Of a stretch of DNA of 64,000 bases, positions 51,292-62,286 are shown in pieces; position 1 is the first letter of the stretch; every line of letters begins with the position of its first letter. A program made the translations under genes and the position numbers. Under the pieces are notes generated by a model. The model was not told where the DNA came from, made no database searches, and worked only from the letters and a program-made list of their open reading frames with translations. Origin of the DNA: a bacterium (lineage in GTDB: Bacteria > Desulfobacterota > Deferrisomatia > Deferrisomatales > BM512); the NCBI GenBank assembly GCA_004322275.1, contig SCTA01000003.1, forward strand, positions 1-64,000, in the 5' to 3' direction.

Positions 51292-53007
51292 ATGAGAATT
51301 TCAGCAGGAAAAAGGACGCCGGCTCTTTTGTGCGCGGTGTTCTTCATATTAACGGCCGCGCTTTTGGCCTCAGGATGCGCGGGAACCGCCGTCACGGAAA
51401 CCGCTACGGCCGAAGAGAAGGTTTGCAGGTACAAAGACACCGATCCCATCCTCAAGTTCAAGGATGAGGTTCTTACCTACGGAGAGGTCAAAAAAATCTG
51501 GGCCTACTCGACCAGTAACGAAAACCCGGATCAGTTCGAGGATGTTGAAGAAAGCTTGAAAGAAGCCAACATAAAGCAGATAGCTGTCAATCATCTTGCA
51601 GCCAAAAGAGCCCGGGGCATGGGGCTTGCTTCGGACAATTATTACGCCGCCAGAGAATACGAGATGATCACGCGGTATATGCCTGCCGTATACGCTGAGA
51701 AGGTCATCGGCGTTGAGGTCAGCCCTACCGATGCAGAATTGCTTGCCATGTCTCCCCCCGCCTTGCCCGAAGTCGTAGTAAGGATTTTTGTCGCAAAGGA
51801 AATGGACAAGGCAAAAGAAGTCTACGAGCGGATCAAGTCCGGCGAAGACATGGAGGCCCTGATAATAAAGGAAAGTCTCGGTCTGTCCGCCCAGACGGGC
51901 GGACAGACGCGCTGGATGACCGTGCAGAACGCGGATAAATTTCCCGCTCCCGTCGTCCAGAAGTTTCTCGACGCCGAAACTGGTCATGTCTTCGAGCCCT
52001 TCTTTCAGGATGTCGGTTTTCTGGTTATTCGGGTAGAGGAGAAGCACTCTCCCGAGGAGGTTCAGCAGATATGGCTGGCGAACAACCGTGGGGAAGCCGT
52101 CTTCAAGCTTCGCAAAGAGGCCTTTGAAGCTCGTGTAATCGAGCTGGTCGACAAGCGCAAAGACGTCGATTTCGACAATGAAAAGGTCAGGGACATTCTG
52201 AGTGGTAAATTGCCCAAAACCGAACCCGTGGCGAAAATCAAGGGGATGGATTTCACGCTTGATATCCTTGTACCTGAACTTATGCGCATGAGTTCAAGTC
52301 ATGGAGAAGACAAGATCGCAAATCATCTGAGCAAGTTTATCGAGCGGGCGGTTGTAACTGAGGAAGCCTACAGTCTCGGCCTCGACATATCCGATACGAC
52401 AAAAGAGATGATCAGGGTAAAGGGTGAAAGAAACCTCTCCAAACTTCTCAAGGACAAGATTGCCAGGGATGCTGAGGAGCAGCCCGTCACAGATGAAGAC
52501 ATGAAGAAATATGTCGAGGAGAATCAGGCGGATTTCACCGAGCCGATGCGCTGGTGTATAAGCCTCATGGAGTTCGATACCCAGGAGAGCGCCGCAGAGA
52601 TAAACGTGAAGGTCAAGGCGGGAGAAGATTTCTCCGGACTCGCCAAGGTCAGCGGAATAAGTGCTGCCAAGGAGTCTTCCGGTGCGATAGGGTGTTACCC
52701 CAAAGTTGAAATTCCCGCTGAGATTTACAACGTGATTGAGCCTATGTCCAAGGGGCAATGCTCACAAGAGCCGTTCAGCGTTGAGCTGAAGGAAGGCGGA
52801 GACCGCTGGCTGCTGGTTCAGGTGTACGATGTGTTAAATCCCTCACCTGTGCCCTTTGAAAGGGTGATAAAACCCATAGTAGAAGGACGCATAAAAACCC
52901 AGCGGCGCGCAAAGGCCATGTCAGAACTGATTAATTCACTTGCTGATGAATATGGGTATGAAAATTGCTTTATCCCGAATAGTGGAAAGGAGAACGTCTC
53001 GCAATGA
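51292..53007 (+). CDS. PpiC/SurA-type peptidyl-prolyl isomerase lipoprotein of the cytochrome locus
   Basis: The 571-residue protein starts at ATG 51292 (GGAGGTGCTCTCAAG upstream) with lipobox LLASGC. It has a SurA-like N-terminal helical region and two parvulin-like segments. The first, about residues 160-260, includes LPEVVVRIFVAKEMDKAKEV and GFLVIRVEEKHSPE. The second, about 425-530, includes PMRWCISLMEF, GEDFSGLAKVSG and GGDRWLLVQVYD. It should sit on the periplasmic face or outer membrane and help fold exported proteins. It overlaps the next gene (ATGA), tying it to the multihaem cytochromes that follow. PPIase genes are known beside extracellular cytochrome filament genes. Confidence 0.83.
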   Translation: MRISAGKRTPALLCAVFFILTAALLASGCAGTAVTETATAEEKVCRYKDTDPILKFKDEVLTYGEVKKIWAYSTSNENPDQFEDVEESLKEANIKQIAVNHLAAKRARGMGLASDNYYAAREYEMITRYMPAVYAEKVIGVEVSPTDAELLAMSPPALPEVVVRIFVAKEMDKAKEVYERIKSGEDMEALIIKESLGLSAQTGGQTRWMTVQNADKFPAPVVQKFLDAETGHVFEPFFQDVGFLVIRVEEKHSPEEVQQIWLANNRGEAVFKLRKEAFEARVIELVDKRKDVDFDNEKVRDILSGKLPKTEPVAKIKGMDFTLDILVPELMRMSSSHGEDKIANHLSKFIERAVVTEEAYSLGLDISDTTKEMIRVKGERNLSKLLKDKIARDAEEQPVTDEDMKKYVEENQADFTEPMRWCISLMEFDTQESAAEINVKVKAGEDFSGLAKVSGISAAKESSGAIGCYPKVEIPAEIYNVIEPMSKGQCSQEPFSVELKEGGDRWLLVQVYDVLNPSPVPFERVIKPIVEGRIKTQRRAKAMSELINSLADEYGYENCFIPNSGKENVSQ

Positions 53008-54605
53008 GCAAAACCATCGCTAAATTTTTAATTGCCTTGGCAATAATCTGTTCCGCCAGCCTCTCTTTGGCGGCCGGTCCCAGTTGGATGCCCGGTTTCC
53101 CGATGCGCATGGGAACCAACGTAATGCTTATGTGGTCGCCCATTCCCGGCGCTACCGGCTACAACCTGTATCGCAGTGAAAAAAGCGGCGATATTGGCAA
53201 GCTCCTTACCTCAATTCCCATGAACAACCACATGGATATGAACGTCCCCATGGACAAGGACGCCGCCTACACCGTTAAGGCAGTCATCGGCGGCGCAGAG
53301 GGCGATGCAAGCCCGCAGAGCGTTATCGCGGGCGTCAAGCCTCTTGATGCCCCCAAGTTCACCGGCGACATCTTCCAGAACGATCAGCTCAACGTTCGTT
53401 GGGACCGCGTTAACGGCGCGGCTTTCTACAACGTCTACAAATCGGAAACCAAGGAAGGTCCCTTCAGTCTGGCGGGTTCCATACAGGAGGTCATGTACGT
53501 CGACGCTGGAGTCACCGCAGGCAAGACTTACTACTATCAGGTCTCCGCCGTAGACAAGAACAACGTCGAATCTCCCCGGTCGGAAACCCGCGAAATAGCG
53601 ATAGCGAAAGCGGCTGTAGTAGCCAAGAGGATCACTTACGAGCACGCCGAAAAGCTCATGAAGCACGATGGCGACGCATACGGCGGCACCCTCGGCCCCT
53701 ACAACGGGCCCGGCAACATGGTCTACAATTCTTTCGACAAGAAAGTCTACGTGGCCGGAGACAACTACTTCTTTTCGATGGATATGGCCGGCAACATCGT
53801 CATGACATTTCTCGCCCCCGCCGATTACGTGGGCAAGTGGGGAAAGCCCCTCCAACTCGCCATCGACCAGGATAACGGAAACATCTGGACCACTTGGCGT
53901 CAGGGCGCTTCCATGGTCAAGGTCTTCAATACCGCGGGCGCGCTTGTCGGCGAGGCCAGCCTCGACTTCCCCAAGGAAGACTACGAAGCCGAAGGCCGCG
54001 AGGCCGACATGAAGGAAGACGCGGGCCTCGTCCCCGCAGCCGCCGGGATAGCGGTTGACGCAGAAGGCGAGATATGGGTCGCCGACAACGTCTTCGGCCA
54101 GATCATCATCTACAACTCGAATTTCGACCGCATCGGCAGGCTCCATTCCCCCCGTTCCCGCACCAAGGACGATGCGAAGATCAACGGCATAACCTCTATC
54201 GTCTACGACGCCAAGCACAACCGTATAATCGCTCTCGATGCCCTGGCAAACCGCTTCCGCCCCTACGACGCCGCCAAGAACGACTTCGTCAAGAACGAGG
54301 CGGGTGAGAACTTCTACGGCTGGGACAAGAGCGGCACCGGCGCGGGTTACTACCAGCTTTCAAAGGGGATTTCCACCACCGACGACGGACACCTTCTGGT
54401 CGTGGCCGGCGAATCCGGCGCGATCCAGGCCCTGGACCTCAACTCGAAGGATCTTGCCTTCTCGTACTTTCTTCAGACCGAGTCCGGCAAGGACAAGATC
54501 CGCTCATCCGCAATCGACGCTCCCGCCGGAGTGCTTTCGGTGGGCAACAAGGTTTTTGTCAGCGACAAACTGTCGGACTTAATTGGCATTTTCACCGTCC
54601 AGTAG
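53004..54605 (+). CDS. Secreted fibronectin III / NHL-type beta-propeller protein (A)
   Basis: The 533-residue protein has a signal peptide (about 1-23). Two fibronectin type III-like domains follow (about 28-110, with WSPIPGATGYNLYRS; about 113-200, with WDRVNGAAFYNVYKS and TYYYQVSAVDKNNVES). The rest is an NHL-like propeller of about 320 residues with blades such as AGIAVDAEGEIWVADNVFGQIIIYN and GISTTDDGHLLVVAG. A protein of the same design is encoded at 60748-62286. Likely exported to the cell surface, perhaps as a partner or assembly factor of the cytochromes. It overlaps the PPIase gene. Confidence 0.83.
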   Translation: MSKTIAKFLIALAIICSASLSLAAGPSWMPGFPMRMGTNVMLMWSPIPGATGYNLYRSEKSGDIGKLLTSIPMNNHMDMNVPMDKDAAYTVKAVIGGAEGDASPQSVIAGVKPLDAPKFTGDIFQNDQLNVRWDRVNGAAFYNVYKSETKEGPFSLAGSIQEVMYVDAGVTAGKTYYYQVSAVDKNNVESPRSETREIAIAKAAVVAKRITYEHAEKLMKHDGDAYGGTLGPYNGPGNMVYNSFDKKVYVAGDNYFFSMDMAGNIVMTFLAPADYVGKWGKPLQLAIDQDNGNIWTTWRQGASMVKVFNTAGALVGEASLDFPKEDYEAEGREADMKEDAGLVPAAAGIAVDAEGEIWVADNVFGQIIIYNSNFDRIGRLHSPRSRTKDDAKINGITSIVYDAKHNRIIALDALANRFRPYDAAKNDFVKNEAGENFYGWDKSGTGAGYYQLSKGISTTDDGHLLVVAGESGAIQALDLNSKDLAFSYFLQTESGKDKIRSSAIDAPAGVLSVGNKVFVSDKLSDLIGIFTVQ

Positions 54606-54716
54606 ATAACAGCTTGAAAGGAGGGAGCAGGATTTATTGCTGTTTTGACGTATCTCGGGCCCGAGTGGGCCAAAAAAACCAGGTAAAGTAAACCGGCCCT
54701 GAATCAACCGGGCCGA

Positions 54717-54737
54717 CAGTCTAAGGAGGAAAGACTG
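54717..54737 (+). promoter_or_regulatory. Hairpin that holds the ribosome-binding site of the 9-haem cytochrome gene in its loop
   Basis: CAGTCT (54717-54722) pairs with AGACTG (54732-54737); the 9-base loop is AAGGAGGAA, a full Shine-Dalgarno sequence. The start codon ATG 54738 follows directly. Translation could be tuned by this structure. Confidence 0.55.
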
Positions 54738-56234
54738 ATGAAGAGGACTCTCAAAGCATTGCTCGCCGGCGCTGTCATGCTGGCACCGATGGCAGGCTGG
54801 GCCGCCATCGACGGTACCCATCACGACATGACCGTTTATCCTGGCGGCGCTGGTACCAGCACACAGAAGTGCGCGTACTGCCACTCGATAACTCTCCCCA
54901 GCGTAGCTACGCCTGGGTTGGGCACCGTCGGCGTTTTCTGCGCCCTCGTCTGCCATGACGCCACCCGTATAGCGAATGCGGCCGTTGACGCCCCCGGCTT
55001 CATCACCCCCGCCGACCTCACGACCACCGTCGGCGGCTCCGGCCTTGCCGTTCTCACCGCCTCACATGGTCTCATGAAGGCCAACATCGTCAACTACGGC
55101 AACCTTGACACCGTAGCGGCGGTTACCGGCACCAACTGGCCGCACGCCGGTGAAGCTTCGATGCAGTGCACCACCTGCCACGCGGTTCATGACGGCACCA
55201 ACCCCCCCTTCCTGAATGCCCCGCTGGCTACCGGCGACAACACCACGGCTTTCTGCAACCGCTGCCACACGGGCGCGAACGCCGGCGCACTCGCCGTCGC
55301 AGGCCGCTGGCAGAACATCGCCAACCAGGGCGCGCACCCGACGGAGTTCGTCTACTCCGCCACCGGCGACGCTTACGCAGCCGCCCCGGGCAAGTCCGGC
55401 CGCTCCATCTCCTTCAAGGCCCCCCTAGTCAACACAGTGGCCGCGCAGCTCACGGTGCCGCTGTTCAACAACGCCAGCAACGACGCCTGGGTGACTGGCG
55501 GACATCTGATCGACACCGTCGCGAACATGCCCAAGACCGCGGTCGGCGCCAACGCCACCACGCGTTTTGGCTGCTACTCCTGCCACAGCGCCCACCAGAA
55601 TGACGGCGCTCTCGCAGCCACCCTTACCCTCGGCGCGACCAACGCCGCGCACGTAGGCGGCGCTTCCTCCGTAATCTGCATCTCCTGCCACGGCGCGGGC
55701 GCTGCGAATACGGTGATCTGGAACGTGGGCGACACCAACTTCGGACACCCGGCCAACGAAGCCGCTGCCCAGCCCTACGAACACGATCACGCCTCTCACG
55801 GCAACGTCCATCCCAACATTCCCTCGGCCGGCACCTTCCCCCTCGACGTGGTCAACCCCGTCGGCGGCATCAGCGGCGCTGATAACCTGACCGCCGTTCA
55901 TGTCGGCGCCAACCAGGAAATTCTCTGCGAAACCTGCCACGACGTCCATGGCGGCGTAGTGGGCCAGATGGCGATCCGCCAGATCGGCACCGTCGACACC
56001 GCCACCGAGCTTATCTGCAGGGCCTGCCACGGCACCAATCCCCAGCCCGCCGGCGGCGCCGGCATCAACCGCCACCATCCGACCGTCGCTCTTGCCGGCA
56101 TCGACCCCGGTTACAACACCGCCGCCGCTCTCGCCTGGGACGCCCAGTACGGTAACGCAGGCAACATGACGATGGCTGACGGCCTTGGCTGCGCGGACTG
56201 CCACGCTTTCGGCAACACCGCCCACAACTGGTAA
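54738..56234 (+). CDS. Nine-haem c-type cytochrome (A), with one CX3CH motif
   Basis: The 498-residue exported protein (signal peptide about 1-23) starts its mature part with IDGTHHDM. It has eight CxxCH motifs (first at 45-49, then 143, 172, 278, 313, 396, 426 and 484) and one CX3CH (C68-ALV-C72-H73). Many additional histidines (HHDM, HPTEF, HDHASH, NRHHP) can be distal ligands. It ends in NTAHNW, shared with the paralogue at 59301-60743. No transmembrane anchor is visible, so it is a periplasmic or extracellular multihaem electron carrier. Alternatives: soluble periplasmic wire or filament subunit. No close match to OmcS, OmcE or OmcZ is claimed. Confidence 0.88.
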   Translation: MKRTLKALLAGAVMLAPMAGWAAIDGTHHDMTVYPGGAGTSTQKCAYCHSITLPSVATPGLGTVGVFCALVCHDATRIANAAVDAPGFITPADLTTTVGGSGLAVLTASHGLMKANIVNYGNLDTVAAVTGTNWPHAGEASMQCTTCHAVHDGTNPPFLNAPLATGDNTTAFCNRCHTGANAGALAVAGRWQNIANQGAHPTEFVYSATGDAYAAAPGKSGRSISFKAPLVNTVAAQLTVPLFNNASNDAWVTGGHLIDTVANMPKTAVGANATTRFGCYSCHSAHQNDGALAATLTLGATNAAHVGGASSVICISCHGAGAANTVIWNVGDTNFGHPANEAAAQPYEHDHASHGNVHPNIPSAGTFPLDVVNPVGGISGADNLTAVHVGANQEILCETCHDVHGGVVGQMAIRQIGTVDTATELICRACHGTNPQPAGGAGINRHHPTVALAGIDPGYNTAAALAWDAQYGNAGNMTMADGLGCADCHAFGNTAHNW

Positions 56235-56264
56235 GTGCAACTGAGAAGAGAAGGGAGATATATA

Positions 56265-57503
56265 ATGAAAAAACTTGCAGCAGCAGTTGCGGGCGTAACC
56301 GCTCTCATTGCTTATCCCGCCATAGCGGGTCTCAACCCCTTTGATCCGGGCCTGCCCCAGGGCTGGACCTCCACCGTTTACACAACGGTCGTGGGCGACG
56401 CAGCCGTTCTTCCCGGCACCATCGACGGCACCGCCGCCACCACGAAACTCTCCGTGCTCGATTCCTACACTTCCGCCATGTGCGTGGAGTGCCACAGCCG
56501 CAACCCCTCCGACAGGATTACCGCTCCGTCCACCCACGCCGGCGGCATCGCGATACTTCCCGGTACCCATCAGGGCAGCCACACCGTCGCCGGCCCCAAC
56601 GCGGCTGGCAGATCCAACTCCGGCGGCGGCTGGAACCCGGCCCGCGTCGCTGGCCAGTACGAGAAGACCACTCTTTGGCTGCCCGGTGCATCGGCAGGCA
56701 AGGGCTTCTCTAAGTACGGCACTCATGACGCCGTCTACTCCGACAACGATCTCCTCGCGGCGGCGGCGGCATCCGTTCCCGGCGACGTCACCTGCGAATC
56801 TTGCCACAACATCCTCGTAAACCGCGGCGACCAGCTCCTTCTCGGCGCTTACGCCGACGGACCTTCCTCTGCCGCGGTCGGCGCGGAAGCCGGCGCCCGC
56901 AACGGCGACCAGATCTGCGTAGCCTGCCACGGCAAGGGCGCTGAGACCTACGCGGCCTTCCACGCCAACGGAAACATGCGCAACTTCAACAACACCGCCA
57001 TGAAGCGCCATCACATCCTCAGCGACGGCGCGGCCGCGATGGTCGACGACCTGGTCAACGCGGTCAACTACGACCCCGATGTCAACGCCGCCACCAACGA
57101 CTCCGTCATGTGGGCGCCGAATTTCTCCTACGAACAGGGCAACGTCGGCACCTACAACGCTTGGGTCTATACCAATACGGTTGCCAGCAACAACACCGTT
57201 CCCTACATCTTCCGTGATCGCTGGAACGTCACCGGCGCCGGCACCCTGGCCGCGGCTATCGCGACGGGCGACATCCCCACGACCACCGAGGTCATGTGCG
57301 TCTCCTGCCACCGCCCGCACAACGCCGAGACCACCACCGGCGCGTTCGTCCTCCGCCGCGGCACCCTTGCCACCGCTTTCCCGGCCGGCGGCGCCGCCAC
57401 CGGCATCCAGCGTCAGAGCGAATTTGACAACACTTTCGCGACCAAGCTGTATGTCGAGTACGTCCCGCTTTGCAAAGGTTGCCACACCGGTTACGGCAAC
57501 TAA
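56265..57503 (+). CDS. Five-haem c-type cytochrome (A)
   Basis: The 412-residue exported protein starts at ATG 56265 (GGAGATATATA upstream), signal peptide about 1-21, and mature start GLNPFDPGLPQGW, a block shared with the 5-haem protein at 58274. Haem motifs: CVECH (73-77), CESCH, CVACH, CVSCH and the near-terminal CKGCH. Long haem-free stretches rich in Asn/Thr/Ala suggest a sheet-type or solenoid part. It follows the 9-haem gene at once, 30 bases after its stop. Likely a partner in the same extracellular electron route. Confidence 0.88.
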   Translation: MKKLAAAVAGVTALIAYPAIAGLNPFDPGLPQGWTSTVYTTVVGDAAVLPGTIDGTAATTKLSVLDSYTSAMCVECHSRNPSDRITAPSTHAGGIAILPGTHQGSHTVAGPNAAGRSNSGGGWNPARVAGQYEKTTLWLPGASAGKGFSKYGTHDAVYSDNDLLAAAAASVPGDVTCESCHNILVNRGDQLLLGAYADGPSSAAVGAEAGARNGDQICVACHGKGAETYAAFHANGNMRNFNNTAMKRHHILSDGAAAMVDDLVNAVNYDPDVNAATNDSVMWAPNFSYEQGNVGTYNAWVYTNTVASNNTVPYIFRDRWNVTGAGTLAAAIATGDIPTTTEVMCVSCHRPHNAETTTGAFVLRRGTLATAFPAGGAATGIQRQSEFDNTFATKLYVEYVPLCKGCHTGYGN

Positions 57504-57518
57504 TATCCTCCAGGTATA

Positions 57519-57540
57519 GAATCTTTTGAAAAAAAGATTC
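57519..57540. promoter_or_regulatory. Hairpin between five-haem gene A and the thioredoxin-like gene
   Basis: GAATCTTTT...AAAAGATTC stem-loop. A second, GC-rich stem (CAGCGGGAGG/CCTCCCGCTG) follows at 57558-57580. Together they may stabilise the upstream mRNA or weaken read-through; neither has a clear T-run of a terminator. Confidence 0.45.
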
Positions 57541-57645
57541 CACTTAGAAAAAAATTCAGCGGGAGGGCGACCTCCCGCTGGACTTTCTAAATTTCCGGGG
57601 TACTCTATCAGCAAGCTCTGGACACTTTTTAAGGAGGAGAAATTT

Positions 57646-58110
57646 ATGAAAAAGATTTTAGGGGTACTCGTAGCGTTGGCTCTGGTCTTCACGTTCTGCG
57701 GTTCCGCTCTCGCGGCCGACAAGATGCTCAGCGCATTCAAGCTCAAAACCGGCGCGGGCGGCGAAATCACACAGGCGGCTTTCAAAGACAAGAAGGTCAT
57801 GCTGGTCTTTTCCCAGATGGCTTGCCGTCAGTGCCGCTTCGAGATGGAAGAGCTCAACGCCAAGGCCGATGAGCTCAAGGGCAAGGTTTTCATCGTCCTC
57901 GTCGACATGAATACCGAGGCCGCCCTCAAACAGTACAACGAACTATACAAGCTTGAAGTCATCCTCGATCCCGATTTCTCGATTCCCGCATCCTTCGCAC
58001 TCATGACCACCCCCGCCACCGTCGTCCTCGACAAGACGGGCAAGGTTAGTTTTGAGAAGGTCGGTTACGTCAGAGGCACGGTCGACGACCTGCTTAAGAA
58101 TCTCCAATAA
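57646..58110 (+). CDS. Exported thioredoxin-like (TlpA/peroxiredoxin-type) protein with CRQC
   Basis: The 154-residue protein starts at ATG 57646, directly after AAGGAGGAG; the longer frame upstream is untranslated leader. Signal peptide about 1-24. The thioredoxin fold has C60-R-Q-C63 after VMLVFSQMA, a cis-proline at MTTPATVVLD, and the end region KVGYVRGTVDDLL. It probably reduces or isomerises disulfides in exported proteins, for example keeping CxxCH cysteines reduced for haem attachment. It sits at the exact centre of the mirrored cytochrome locus and ends at a strong terminator. Confidence 0.88.
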   Translation: MKKILGVLVALALVFTFCGSALAADKMLSAFKLKTGAGGEITQAAFKDKKVMLVFSQMACRQCRFEMEELNAKADELKGKVFIVLVDMNTEAALKQYNELYKLEVILDPDFSIPASFALMTTPATVVLDKTGKVSFEKVGYVRGTVDDLLKNLQ

Positions 58111-58124
58111 CACCTTAAAAATTT

Positions 58125-58170
58125 CCAAAAAAAGAAGGTCATGCCGTGAGGCCTGACCTTCTTTTTTTGG
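58125..58170 (+). terminator. Strong intrinsic terminator in the middle of the cytochrome locus
   Basis: 17-bp perfect stem CCAAAAAAAGAAGGTCA with its complement ending CTTCTTTTTTTGG. It separates the upstream transcription unit (PPIase to thioredoxin-like gene) from the downstream one. Confidence 0.9.
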
Positions 58171-58233
58171 TACGTCATAAAGTTGGTAAACGTCGTTTAT
58201 ATGCCCTGTAACATTGAAGTTCTTGTGTGGTAA

Positions 58234-58239
58234 TATAAT
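58234..58239 (+). promoter_or_regulatory. Possible -10 element for the second cytochrome operon
   Basis: TATAAT about 35 bases before the TTG start codon, in an AT-rich stretch after the terminator. The best -35 candidate (TTGAAG, 58214) is only 14 bases away, so the assignment is weak. Confidence 0.35.
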
Positions 58240-58273
58240 TAAAGTCGATTTTATTGCGTCCGGGAGGTAAATC

Positions 58274-59317
58274 TTGTTCAAGCGCAGTCGGGCTTCCCGT
58301 TTTGTCATGGTTTTTGCGCTGGCGCTCGCCGGAAGCTCTCTGGTCGAGGCGGGTCTGAACCCTCTCGATCCCGGCCTTCCCCAAGGCTGGACGCCGACTG
58401 CGGGAAACGGCTACGCGCCGGTTATAGTCGGAATTCCCGCCGACAGACTTTCACTGACCAACAGTTGGGGGTCGGCGCTTTGCGTCGAGTGCCACAACGC
58501 AAATCCCTCGACCAGAACCCTTCTGCCGATGCCCGGCCCGTTGCCCGCAGGCGACCTCGAAACCATGTACCGCGGGAGCCATTTCGTAAAAAATTACTCG
58601 GCGGGCGCCTGGAGCGCCGCGACAACGACGAGCAACACCTTCACCGCGGAAAAAGTCACGGCCTGGGCCGGAAGCGGCGCTTTCTCCCAGTACGGCACGC
58701 TCGGCACGAACGCAACGAATGCCATTCCTCCCGGCGGACCCTCCGTCGCAGGTGAAATGATCTGCGAGAGCTGCCACAACGTTACGAAAAACGTCGGCGA
58801 CCAGCTTTTGCTGGAAAACTGGAACAATGCAACCGGCGTCGCCACGGTTTGCGAAGGCTGCCACCCGAACCCGGCGCTCGGCCCACCTTACCACCACGCG
58901 CTCTCCAGCGGAGCCGCCTCTCCCACCTCCAATGACGTAGGACCCGACACGGAAAACCCGCTTAAGCACGACCTGAACACCGGTCATGCCTCTCACGTGC
59001 TCGCCACGCCGCGGGTGGACAGCGGCGGAATAGCCTATTTCACGGGTACCGTCACCTGCGTCACCTGCCACAAGCCTCATGACGCGATGTCGGCCTCCGC
59101 AGCCAGGATATTGCGAAGGGGCAATTGCCAGTTTACCGGCGTCGCCGGGATGATCGGCAGGCAGCTTAACGTCGTCTACTACGACAACATACCTCCGGGC
59201 TTCATCAGCGGAAGCGTCGTCGAAAGATCGGCGACCGGCATCGGAAGGCAGTCCGATTTCAGCCCTCTTCAGCTGATTACCAATTCAGATCCTCTATGCG
59301 ATGCATGCCATATTTAA
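58274..59317 (+). CDS. Five-haem c-type cytochrome (B)
   Basis: The 347-residue exported protein starts at TTG 58274 after GGGAGG, with signal peptide about 1-26. The mature start GLNPLDPGLPQGW is the same block as in five-haem protein A. Haem motifs: CVECH, CESCH, CEGCH, CVTCH and a C-terminal CDACH one residue before the end. It is shorter than A by about 65 residues. It overlaps the next gene by 17 bases if that gene starts at its ATG. Confidence 0.87.
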   Translation: MFKRSRASRFVMVFALALAGSSLVEAGLNPLDPGLPQGWTPTAGNGYAPVIVGIPADRLSLTNSWGSALCVECHNANPSTRTLLPMPGPLPAGDLETMYRGSHFVKNYSAGAWSAATTTSNTFTAEKVTAWAGSGAFSQYGTLGTNATNAIPPGGPSVAGEMICESCHNVTKNVGDQLLLENWNNATGVATVCEGCHPNPALGPPYHHALSSGAASPTSNDVGPDTENPLKHDLNTGHASHVLATPRVDSGGIAYFTGTVTCVTCHKPHDAMSASAARILRRGNCQFTGVAGMIGRQLNVVYYDNIPPGFISGSVVERSATGIGRQSDFSPLQLITNSDPLCDACHI

Positions 59318-60743
59318 AGGCGGCCACATAAGCGGATATTTTTCAGGCCGCAGACTGTCCGGCTTGCGAAATCCGAAAAAATCATCCCTCCGCACAAAAG
59401 GGGTATTTTTCGCTTTTTTGATATTTTGCGGTCTTATCGCCCATGCCGGCGTTGACGACACCCACCACGATATGTCCTGGCTTACCGGGCGGCAGGGAGT
59501 TGACGATCCTAATTCCTGCTCCTATTGCCACGTGCCCCGGCAGGTGTCGAAAAAAGCCGGAATTTTCGAGAGGGTCGGCGTTTACAGCGGCGAACTGGAT
59601 TCTCTCGGCGCGTTTTGCTACAACTGCCATGACGGAACGGTCTTTCCCACCGCGCTGGTCGAAGCGCCGGGGGGGTTCATCGGGGTAAACGCCCTAACCA
59701 ATTCCCACGGCTTCGATCTGACGAGAATGCCTAAGAGTACGGGCAATCTCGAAGGGATGCCAAACATAGCCCTGGGCGGCCTTGTCGAGCCCGACCCGTT
59801 GACGGGAAAATATCCCGATCGTTTCTCCTGCAACGCCTGTCATGACGTGCATTCCAGCGTCAACCCGCCTTTTCTCCGCGTCCCCCTCGGGGATCTCTGC
59901 CAGCGCTGTCACAGCGGCTCGGACGGCCTCGGCAAAGGACGGTGGACAAAGCCGGAGAACACCGGGCTCGACAACGGCCCTCACCCTATCGGCATGCCCC
60001 TCAAGGACACCGGCCTCGACAGGGTGAGGGGGCTTGGCGCCGAAAAATCATTTCATTCGCCCTTCAGCTATTATCAGGTTGCAACCCCCTCCGAAGATGA
60101 TTTGCGCTACATCGACACCCACTGGGAAACCGGAGGACATCTCATTGGCGCCGACAGATTCGTTTCCTGCGCCACCTGCCACAGCGTTCACCTTCCCGCC
60201 GAGGACCTGCTCGTATCGCTCATCGCGCCGGATTCAAATATGACGACATGCACAGGCTGTCACAGCGACGGCGTGAACTATTCCAATCCCGGCGTGACGC
60301 CCTATTACCACCCGGTGAACGAAGAATCTCTCCCACCTTACATCCATGATCACTCGACGCATGCCGACGTCCGCCATCCGAATCTTCCGGACTCGGGATA
60401 TTTGGAACTGTTCGTCAACATTCCCAAGGAATTTGTCCTCGGTCAGCAACGCGAACTCCTGTGCATAACCTGCCACAAGTCTCACTCCACGGTTCCGGGG
60501 AAGAGGTGTCTGCGTGGCGGAAATGAAGAGAAATTGGTTCAATGCAACTACTGTCACGGAACCGGCGACGATTTGAGCCCGATAAACCGTCACCATCCTG
60601 TCAGGAACCGCGATGTTTCGCTGCAGGGGTTTCCCGCTATGCCGGCTTGGGGAAGCGGCAGCGGGCTTCCCGGCGATCTGACCGACGGCCTGCAATGCGT
60701 GGATTGTCACACCGAATGGGCTAAGAACGCCCATAACTGGTAG
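59301..60743 (+). CDS. Nine-haem c-type cytochrome (B)
   Basis: The 480-residue protein has nine CxxCH motifs (first CSYCH at about 73, CYNCH about 106, CNACH about 177, then CQRCH, CATCH, CTGCH, CITCH, CNYCH and CVDCH) and the same frame as protein A, from the VDDTHHDM start to the KNAHNW end. At the place of A's CX3CH it has a normal CYNCHD. Start is uncertain: ATG 59301 gives a long basic N-terminus, whereas TTG 59364 (MRNPKKSSLR...) would give an ordinary signal peptide. It is followed 4 bases later by propeller gene B. Confidence 0.87.
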   Translation: MHAIFKGGHISGYFSGRRLSGLRNPKKSSLRTKGVFFAFLIFCGLIAHAGVDDTHHDMSWLTGRQGVDDPNSCSYCHVPRQVSKKAGIFERVGVYSGELDSLGAFCYNCHDGTVFPTALVEAPGGFIGVNALTNSHGFDLTRMPKSTGNLEGMPNIALGGLVEPDPLTGKYPDRFSCNACHDVHSSVNPPFLRVPLGDLCQRCHSGSDGLGKGRWTKPENTGLDNGPHPIGMPLKDTGLDRVRGLGAEKSFHSPFSYYQVATPSEDDLRYIDTHWETGGHLIGADRFVSCATCHSVHLPAEDLLVSLIAPDSNMTTCTGCHSDGVNYSNPGVTPYYHPVNEESLPPYIHDHSTHADVRHPNLPDSGYLELFVNIPKEFVLGQQRELLCITCHKSHSTVPGKRCLRGGNEEKLVQCNYCHGTGDDLSPINRHHPVRNRDVSLQGFPAMPAWGSGSGLPGDLTDGLQCVDCHTEWAKNAHNW

Positions 60744-60747
60744 ACAC

Positions 60748-62286
60748 ATGAGACGTGAAACGATTCTTGTAATCAGATTTTCGGCTTTTATTGTCATGGT
60801 GCTCGTTTTTGCGGCAACCACCGCTTTTGCTCTCGGGCAGGTTCAGTGGCAGAAAAATTCTCCCCAGAGAGTCGGCGGGCAGGCGATAATAATGTGGAAC
60901 GCCCTGCCCGGGGCTTTGAAATACTCGATTTCCCGCACGGATATGCTGACCAACAAGACCGTTTCCTGGGAGACTCAGTCCCTCTACTACGTCGATCTTC
61001 GGGCCGAATCGGGGAAAGCCTACAAGTACCTGATCACCGCGCTCGGCGCCGATGGCCGTCCGCTGGGCGTTTCGGAATCCCGCCTGCTCGAGGCCTTCAA
61101 GCCGCTGGAGCCTCCCAGATGGGGAGGAAGCTATCAGGAGGGCGGCCGCCTCTATCTGGTCTGGGACGGCGACCCGAGAGCCAAATTCCACAACCTCTAC
61201 CGCATTGATCAGGGATCGAAGGAAGCGAGTAAAATCGCCTCGGTTCAGACGGGCAAGTACGTCGATTCAAATATCCTGCCGAGGGCGAAATACACCTACT
61301 ATATCCGCTCCGTTGACAGGGACGGCAAGGAGTCGGAATCTTCCAACTATCTGGACGCTGAGGTCGAAACCTGGGAGGGCGCACCGGCGGTCGGGGTGGT
61401 GGCAAAGAGATACGTAAACGCTGTCGGAATGATTGTGGGGCAGGCGAACAGCCTCTTCAGCGAGCCAACCGACATGGTTTTCCGTCGTGGCAAACTCTTT
61501 GTCACGGATATGGGGAGCAGGGCGATTCAGGAATTCACGCCCGAAGGAGCCCTCGTGCGCCGCATCGGCGTGAAGCCCCCGAATTACCCGAAAGAGTGGG
61601 GTATTCCCTGGGGAATGGATTCCGACATAGAGGGCAAGGTCTTTGCGGTCACCTATCTGAAGACTCCCTACGTCAGGATCTTCGACCGGAACGGAAAGAT
61701 GATCCTCGACCTCGAGGTATTCAAGCCCCGGGAACTAAAGGATTACCCGCTCGTCCCGCAGGCGATGGACGTGCTTCTCGACGGTAACGGCGGGTTCTGG
61801 GTGAGCGAGTTTTCCTACGGACAGCTCATTCACTATGACGAAAGGGGCACCGAAATATTGAGGGTGGGCACACCGAAATTCCTCGAAGAGGGAGAGCCCT
61901 TCAAGACCCCGACCTTCCTCGCCCGCCAGCCAAAAACCGGCGACATCTGGGTTTCGGAATCCCTGCAGGGCAGGATTTACAGGATCACGCAGGAAGGGGA
62001 GATTATCGGCTTTATGGATAACCGGGACAGCGAGCTGGGCGTCCTGATCATGCCCAAGGATATCGCGCCCGGCAAGGAGGGCGAACTGCTCGTCATAGAC
62101 GGCATGCTCGGCAGCCTGCAGTCCTTCGACGAAAAAGGCAACCTAGTCGCGGTTTACTACACACCGGAACTGGAATATCTCGAACTGCCCAGCATAGTCG
62201 CCGTAGCCTACGACCCGACCACCGGAGACATCTACGTATCATCGAAGATAGAGAGCGCGATCTTCAGGCTCCAGCTCATCCAGTAA
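60748..62286 (+). CDS. Secreted fibronectin III / NHL-type beta-propeller protein (B)
   Basis: The 512-residue protein matches the design of propeller protein A: signal peptide (about 1-31), the WQKNSPQRVGGQAIIMWNALPGALKYSIS-type fibronectin III domain, a second such domain (PPRWGGS...YYIRSVDRDGKES), then a propeller of about 300 residues with NHL-like blades (DMVFRRGKLFVTDMGSRAIQEF, AMDVLLDGNGGFWVSEFSYGQLIHY). It is 4 bases downstream of the 9-haem gene B, and it closes the mirrored gene order. Probably surface-exposed; role inferred from context only. Confidence 0.83.
   Translation: MRRETILVIRFSAFIVMVLVFAATTAFALGQVQWQKNSPQRVGGQAIIMWNALPGALKYSISRTDMLTNKTVSWETQSLYYVDLRAESGKAYKYLITALGADGRPLGVSESRLLEAFKPLEPPRWGGSYQEGGRLYLVWDGDPRAKFHNLYRIDQGSKEASKIASVQTGKYVDSNILPRAKYTYYIRSVDRDGKESESSNYLDAEVETWEGAPAVGVVAKRYVNAVGMIVGQANSLFSEPTDMVFRRGKLFVTDMGSRAIQEFTPEGALVRRIGVKPPNYPKEWGIPWGMDSDIEGKVFAVTYLKTPYVRIFDRNGKMILDLEVFKPRELKDYPLVPQAMDVLLDGNGGFWVSEFSYGQLIHYDERGTEILRVGTPKFLEEGEPFKTPTFLARQPKTGDIWVSESLQGRIYRITQEGEIIGFMDNRDSELGVLIMPKDIAPGKEGELLVIDGMLGSLQSFDEKGNLVAVYYTPELEYLELPSIVAVAYDPTTGDIYVSSKIESAIFRLQLIQ

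Follow-up and report, generated by a model that had tools for sequence, protein, structure and literature searches.

A conserved mirrored locus of nonahaem cytochromes with OmcE-type domains, a candidate extracellular electron-transfer module in Deferrisomatales

The window analysed here, a stretch of 64,000 nucleotides from a 2.88-Mb genome in 45 contigs, carries on its plus strand between 51.3 and 62.3 kb a locus of eight open reading frames. With a probability of roughly 0.6, this locus represents a dedicated module for electron transfer on or outside the outer surface, with two diverged nonahaem cytochromes at its core and its own helpers for folding and maturation. Each nonahaem protein is best explained as an OmcE-type tetrahaem domain followed by five more haems with predicted bis-histidine ligation, and because these proteins begin with a domain akin to OmcE, which builds an electrically conductive bacterial filament, the cluster probably encodes a so far undescribed form of the apparatus by which electrons leave the cell. 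We infer the extracellular location, the roles of the partner proteins and the direction of electron flow from features of the sequence. Structures exist for just a few families of cytochrome filaments, and their folding, export and anchoring are poorly known (PMC12307469). In the literature searched, no description was found of an extracellular electron-transfer apparatus in Deferrisomatales, nor of a nonahaem OmcE-domain locus, the original papers on OmcE, the osc operon and the archaeal filaments lying outside that search. The locus is regarded as a real, conserved and new variant among OmcE-type extracellular cytochrome loci. It places an OmcE-type domain within a larger protein, gives every copy a propeller to itself, and retains PPIase and thioredoxin genes alongside across families, which makes the set a natural comparison for which accessory genes accompany which cytochrome.

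The genes follow the order PPIase, propeller A, c9A (nonahaem), c5A (pentahaem), thioredoxin-like, c5B, c9B and propeller B (Table 1). By inspection, a signal peptide or a lipobox is carried by all eight products, and in both propeller proteins the Fn3-like domains lie N-terminal to the NHL propeller. Spacing is operon-like at three junctions: PPIase and propeller A overlap by 4 bp, c5B and c9B by 17 bp, and c9B and propeller B are a few bases apart. The reading frame of the PPIase is open already from 51256. Promoter and terminator scans yielded no more sites than shuffled sequence.

Table 1 Coordinates, within the window, of the genes and domains of the locus.
Feature	Position	Strand	Description	Basis
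PPIase	51292..53007	+	exported lipoprotein, two rotamase domains	Pfam Rotamase/Rotamase_2; lipobox LASGC in translation
Propeller A	53004..54605	+	signal peptide, Fn3-like domains, NHL propeller	
c9A	54738..56234	+	nonahaem; 8 CxxCH and CX3CH at haem 2	
c9A N-terminal domain	about 54804-55268		OmcE-type tetrahaem domain	
c5A	56265..57503	+	pentahaem cytochrome	
Thioredoxin-like protein	57646..58110	+	exported; CRQC motif, AhpC-TSA/ResA-like	
c5B	58274..59317	+	pentahaem cytochrome	
c9B	59301..60743	+	nonahaem; 9 CxxCH	
c9B N-terminal domain	about 59445-59921		OmcE-type tetrahaem domain	
Propeller B	60748..62286	+	signal peptide, Fn3-like domains, NHL propeller	

Together the four cytochrome genes encode 27 CxxCH motifs, five of them in each pentahaem protein, and one CX3CH (CALVCH, in c9A). 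At the nucleotide level the window holds 34 TGYN6TGYCAY sites, 27 of which fall inside these four genes, against a mean of 1.2 and a maximum of 4 in shuffled windows. Pairwise BLASTP identifies c9A and c9B (31% over 519 columns, E=2e-50), c5A and c5B (29%, E=8e-34) and propellers A and B (24%, E=4e-32) as paralogues, so that the two half-loci are paralogous sets with reversed gene order on one strand. The preliminary description had reported this gene order and strand, the motif totals, two paralogous sets in opposite order and the lack of a porin gene; all are borne out by the open reading frames, the motif counts and the BLASTP comparisons, and no barrel is encoded among the eight genes. Neither a simple tandem duplication nor an inversion gives opposite order on one strand; both were ruled out as sources of the mirrored layout, which requires rearrangement.

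When a profile of the three c9 proteins of the host (c9A, c9B and c9C, the last encoded on another contig) is compared with all PDB chains, the sole strong match is 7tfs, the OmcE filament of Geobacter sulfurreducens (E=9.2e-13); the second-best match reaches E=1.8e-4. The first 174 c9 positions align with OmcE residues 5-231 of 232, with all four haem motifs in register, and five further haems follow C-terminally, giving nine haems in 432-480 residues as against the tetrahaem OmcE of about 230. An hhalign comparison of 17 c9 with 21 OmcE-type sequences of the phylum returns 99.7% and a score of 183, again with the four motifs aligned. In the controls, scores lie at 48-63 and cover short stretches: c9 with OmcS gives 48, c5 with OmcE gives 63, chiefly over the signal peptide, and c5 with OmcS lies within this range. 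The OmcE query was the sequence in the 7tfs alignment, and the OmcS query is identical to 6ef8 over 407 residues. The pentahaem proteins were also considered as OmcS-like, a candidate dismissed since hhalign covers just a 45-column stretch; their profiles match no solved structure in the PDB. OmcZ is an octahaem protein with a long-loop haem-1 motif, and it is absent among the PDB matches of the c9 and c5 profiles. The cytochromes had at first been described as lacking an obvious match to OmcS, OmcE or OmcZ; this holds for OmcS and OmcZ, but the N-terminal domain of c9 does match OmcE. In a tree of the tetrahaem domain, c9A, c9B and relatives with 10 and 14 haems separate from OmcE and its 11-haem relatives (split 99/97), and from its place on the sister side c9 is taken as an OmcE-domain cytochrome and not an OmcE orthologue. 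Structure prediction from shallow alignments gave a mean pLDDT of 30 for c9B (5 sequences) and 27 for c5B (4 sequences).

Nine proximal and eleven free histidines are invariant in the 17 c9 sequences, enough for bis-histidine ligation of all nine haems, which argues for electron transfer and against a catalytic site. In the c5 proteins, only four distal histidines are well conserved for five haems, one ligand short. OmcE has exactly four invariant free histidines in 21/21 sequences, located at TxHD, CxxCHxxH (haem 1), DHP and CHxVH (haem 3). Those of TxHD and CHxVH are retained in c9, and the DHP position is uncertain in the alignment. The CxxCHxxH histidine (CHTPH in OmcE) is lost in c9A, c9B and c9C of the host and in 7/7 c9A orthologues; it is present in most c9B orthologues, and OmcS also has a histidine at the corresponding position. 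This histidine after haem 1, which resembles the subunit-bridging ligand of OmcS, may bridge the subunits of OmcE. An inter-subunit histidine-haem bond is common to OmcS and OmcE (PMC9473688).

Among 12 genomes of the order that were compared, c9 proteins are present in eight (E <= 1e-25), six of which have both c9A and c9B. They are absent from one genome of the same genus and two of the same family, where the module is thus accessory. A Deferrisomatales metagenome-assembled genome (JARGFW010000092) has a gene order identical to that of the host, and four families possess full or nearly full loci of the form PPIase-propA-c9A-c5-trx-c5B-(c5)-c9B-propB, the extra pentahaem gene before c9B occurring in two of them. 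The segment from PPIase to c5B (PPIase-propA-c9A-c5-trx-c5B) is retained across Deferrisomatales and partly outside the order. In another family of the phylum, the c9A half also occurs, with PPIase, propeller, pentahaem protein and in part the thioredoxin-like protein, and the CX3CH motif is present. The conserved neighbourhood on which the first proposal of an extracellular electron-transfer system depended is therefore found across Deferrisomatales families, and the proposal is kept as a conserved, dedicated locus of apparently extracellular type. Its further reading as two related filaments, or as a conduit with two outlets, is tentative. Trees of c9 (support 100/99) and of the propellers (100/100) each resolve an A and a B clade, every one of which has members from several Deferrisomatales families (four in the propeller A clade); the pairing is accordingly older than the divergence of those families, and the mirrored arrangement is, as judged from these trees, ancestral in them. 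In the c5 tree, c5B, the protein encoded after the thioredoxin-like gene, stands apart from the remaining c5 sequences. CX3CH at haem 2 is found in 7/7 c9A orthologues of Deferrisomatales and in no c9B; a sequencing error was ruled out, because the motif is kept in these seven and in four c9A homologues of the other family.

Related arrangements occur elsewhere. Within the same family, another genome has a unit of c5, c9 and propeller genes next to EF-P and EpmA-like genes, as at the host locus. A genome of the same order (L058:1990-12103) has two convergent pairs of a propeller and a 14-haem protein, and there c9 relatives with 14 haems apparently stand in for the nonahaem type. In a genome of another order, a related locus (L056:3316-19302) comprises three 14-haem proteins, two propellers, a thioredoxin and a PPIase-like gene, which suggests repeated expansion of one parts list. 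A further genome of the same order, G265, encodes two tandem OmcS homologues of 69% and 61% identity (L102:9998-12732) and also a c9 locus; with the 69%-identical OmcS at another locus, the two systems are separate.

Comparison with known cytochrome systems reveals partial likeness to several. In 20 OmcE-type loci taken from the phylum, OmcE adjoins NHL propellers, and nearly all contain a protein of 660-806 residues that matches no Pfam family (four tested) and, by inspection, looks like an outer-membrane barrel. Many also encode an 11-haem cytochrome that starts with an OmcE N-domain, and one carries the haem-attachment genes ResB and CcsA. OmcE and its locus share with the c9 locus the four N-terminal haem motifs in register, the TxHD start, CHxVHxxxxPFLR and the adjacent NHL propellers. 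Unlike OmcE, c9 is nonahaem, lacks the CHTPH histidine in the host and belongs to a sister clade; unlike the OmcE loci, the host locus includes PPIase and thioredoxin genes and is devoid of a barrel or a short OmcE. The 11-haem OmcE-domain cytochromes of Desulfobacterota resemble c9 in combining an OmcE-type N-domain with extra haems next to a propeller gene, but they group with OmcE in the N-domain tree and have a short OmcE and a barrel-like protein as neighbours. In the OmcS locus examined here, propellers of two kinds are encoded along with CsgG-like lipoproteins, a barrel-like protein of 755 residues and a PPIase that, as in the host locus, has two rotamase domains. With the OmcS/osc operon the host locus has in common an exported two-rotamase PPIase, NHL and other propellers, and multihaem cytochromes, but it lacks an OmcS homologue, the CsgG-like lipoproteins and the barrel-like protein; its propellers show no close sequence similarity to those at OmcS loci, and neither c9 nor c5 resembles OmcS in sequence. 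A paper citing the work on the osc operon assigns OscH to OmcS folding, OscEFG to secretion and OscD to morphology (PMC13194489). The MtrCAB, OmbB-OmaB-OmcB and ExtABCD conduits likewise bring several multihaem cytochromes together in Fe(III)-reducer lineages, and Deferrisoma is a known dissimilatory Fe(III) reducer (PMC10052568). In contrast to these porin-cytochrome conduits, no open reading frame of the host locus encodes an outer-membrane barrel or another route across the outer membrane, and the MtrB/PioB family (PF11854) has no match in the host genome. A profile of the OmcE-locus barrel also finds no match there, which is weak evidence since barrels diverge fast.

Within the proposed module, the exported thioredoxin-like protein would keep the haem-binding cysteines of Sec-exported apocytochromes reduced for haem attachment, and the two-domain PPIase lipoprotein would aid the folding of the long apocytochromes. 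Each Fn3-NHL propeller may serve the adjoining nonahaem protein as its cognate partner in export or assembly. Electrons would be exchanged between pentahaem and nonahaem proteins on or outside the outer membrane, and the nonahaem proteins would conduct them through the OmcE-like four-haem segment and the five further haems. In favour of the module are the OmcE match, the histidine supply of c9, the likeness to OmcE and OmcS loci, the conservation of the gene set, the haem-rich genome and the Fe(III) reduction of Deferrisoma. Against it count the lack of a barrel in the locus, the absence of c9 from three close genomes, and pentahaem proteins that resemble no solved structure and are one well-conserved distal histidine short.

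The form taken by the nonahaem proteins admits several explanations. Tentatively, c9A and/or c9B may polymerise outside the cell into filaments of nonahaem units, either a separate filament for each half-locus or a mixed one, with the PPIase and the propellers as assembly factors. Polymerisation of c9 is plausible, if doubtful, given the OmcE-type domain and a PPIase and propellers like the companions at OmcE and OmcS loci. The host genome yields no OmcE orthologue and no OmcS match better than E=0.002, which leaves the c9 proteins as the sole cytochromes of OmcE type that it encodes. On the other hand, c9 lies in a sister clade outside the filament-forming OmcE, the CxxCHxxH histidine of OmcE is gone from the three c9 proteins of the host and the seven c9A orthologues, and the available histidines suffice to coordinate all c9 haems without a neighbouring subunit. 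Fusions of an OmcE domain with extra haems also occur in the 11-haem proteins, whose genes accompany one for a normal OmcE; this hints that such fusions serve some purpose other than filaments. It is rather unlikely that c9A and c9B represent a new kind of filament subunit, namely OmcE-domain-derived nonahaem units with self-sufficient haem ligands, assembled as two wires or one heteropolymer with a propeller for each half. On that reading, the CX3CH haem would be a conserved feature of one partner only.

The 11-haem proteins, which share the OmcE-plus-extra-haems architecture and whose genes neighbour those for a short OmcE and for a large protein of barrel-like appearance, offer a model for another possible but uncertain role of c9, at the base of an electron-transfer chain on the surface or capping it, that is, as a docking cytochrome and not a wire. 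It fits poorly with a host genome in which no short OmcE or OmcS was found as docking partner, with a locus without a barrel, and with G265, whose OmcS and c9 lie at different loci. A periplasmic respiratory enzyme complex of the nonahaem and pentahaem proteins (a nitrite, tetrathionate or similar reductase) is very improbable. Weak local matches of the pentahaem proteins to NrfB/NapC-type models are typical of any paired-CxxCH protein, and Pfam matches to MtrC/MtrF, NapC/NirT, NrfB and cytochrome c554 were likewise short paired-CxxCH matches, dismissed as indicators of function. The locus has no multihaem reductase signature of the NrfA, Otr or Ttr type (CxxCK) and no catalytic-haem signature, every motif being CxxCH or CX3CH and ending in CH; candidate distal histidines exist for all nine c9 haems, and no match reaches the curated NCBIfam cut-off of any enzyme family. 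The preliminary description had named soluble enzymes as best matches that would speak against its reading; the best solved relative of c9 is instead the filament cytochrome OmcE.

The host genome is very haem-rich: TGYN6TGYCAY occurs 529 times and the reversed pattern about 99 times, an excess of some 430 CxxCH-type sites over this control. A third unit, c5C-c9C-propC, is located on contig C27, where an integrase-like gene (410 aa) and a helicase/primase-like gene lie directly upstream (L009:2628-6513); the unit may adjoin a mobile element. On contig C22, an 831-residue protein contains 31 CxxCH motifs (L012:7405-9900), and about 4.4 kb from its gene lies one for a [NiFe]-hydrogenase-like small subunit (L012:14330-15427). 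Near the end of contig C1 (L011:11994-12698), an exported Fn3-only protein resembles the N-terminal part of propeller A and carries no propeller.
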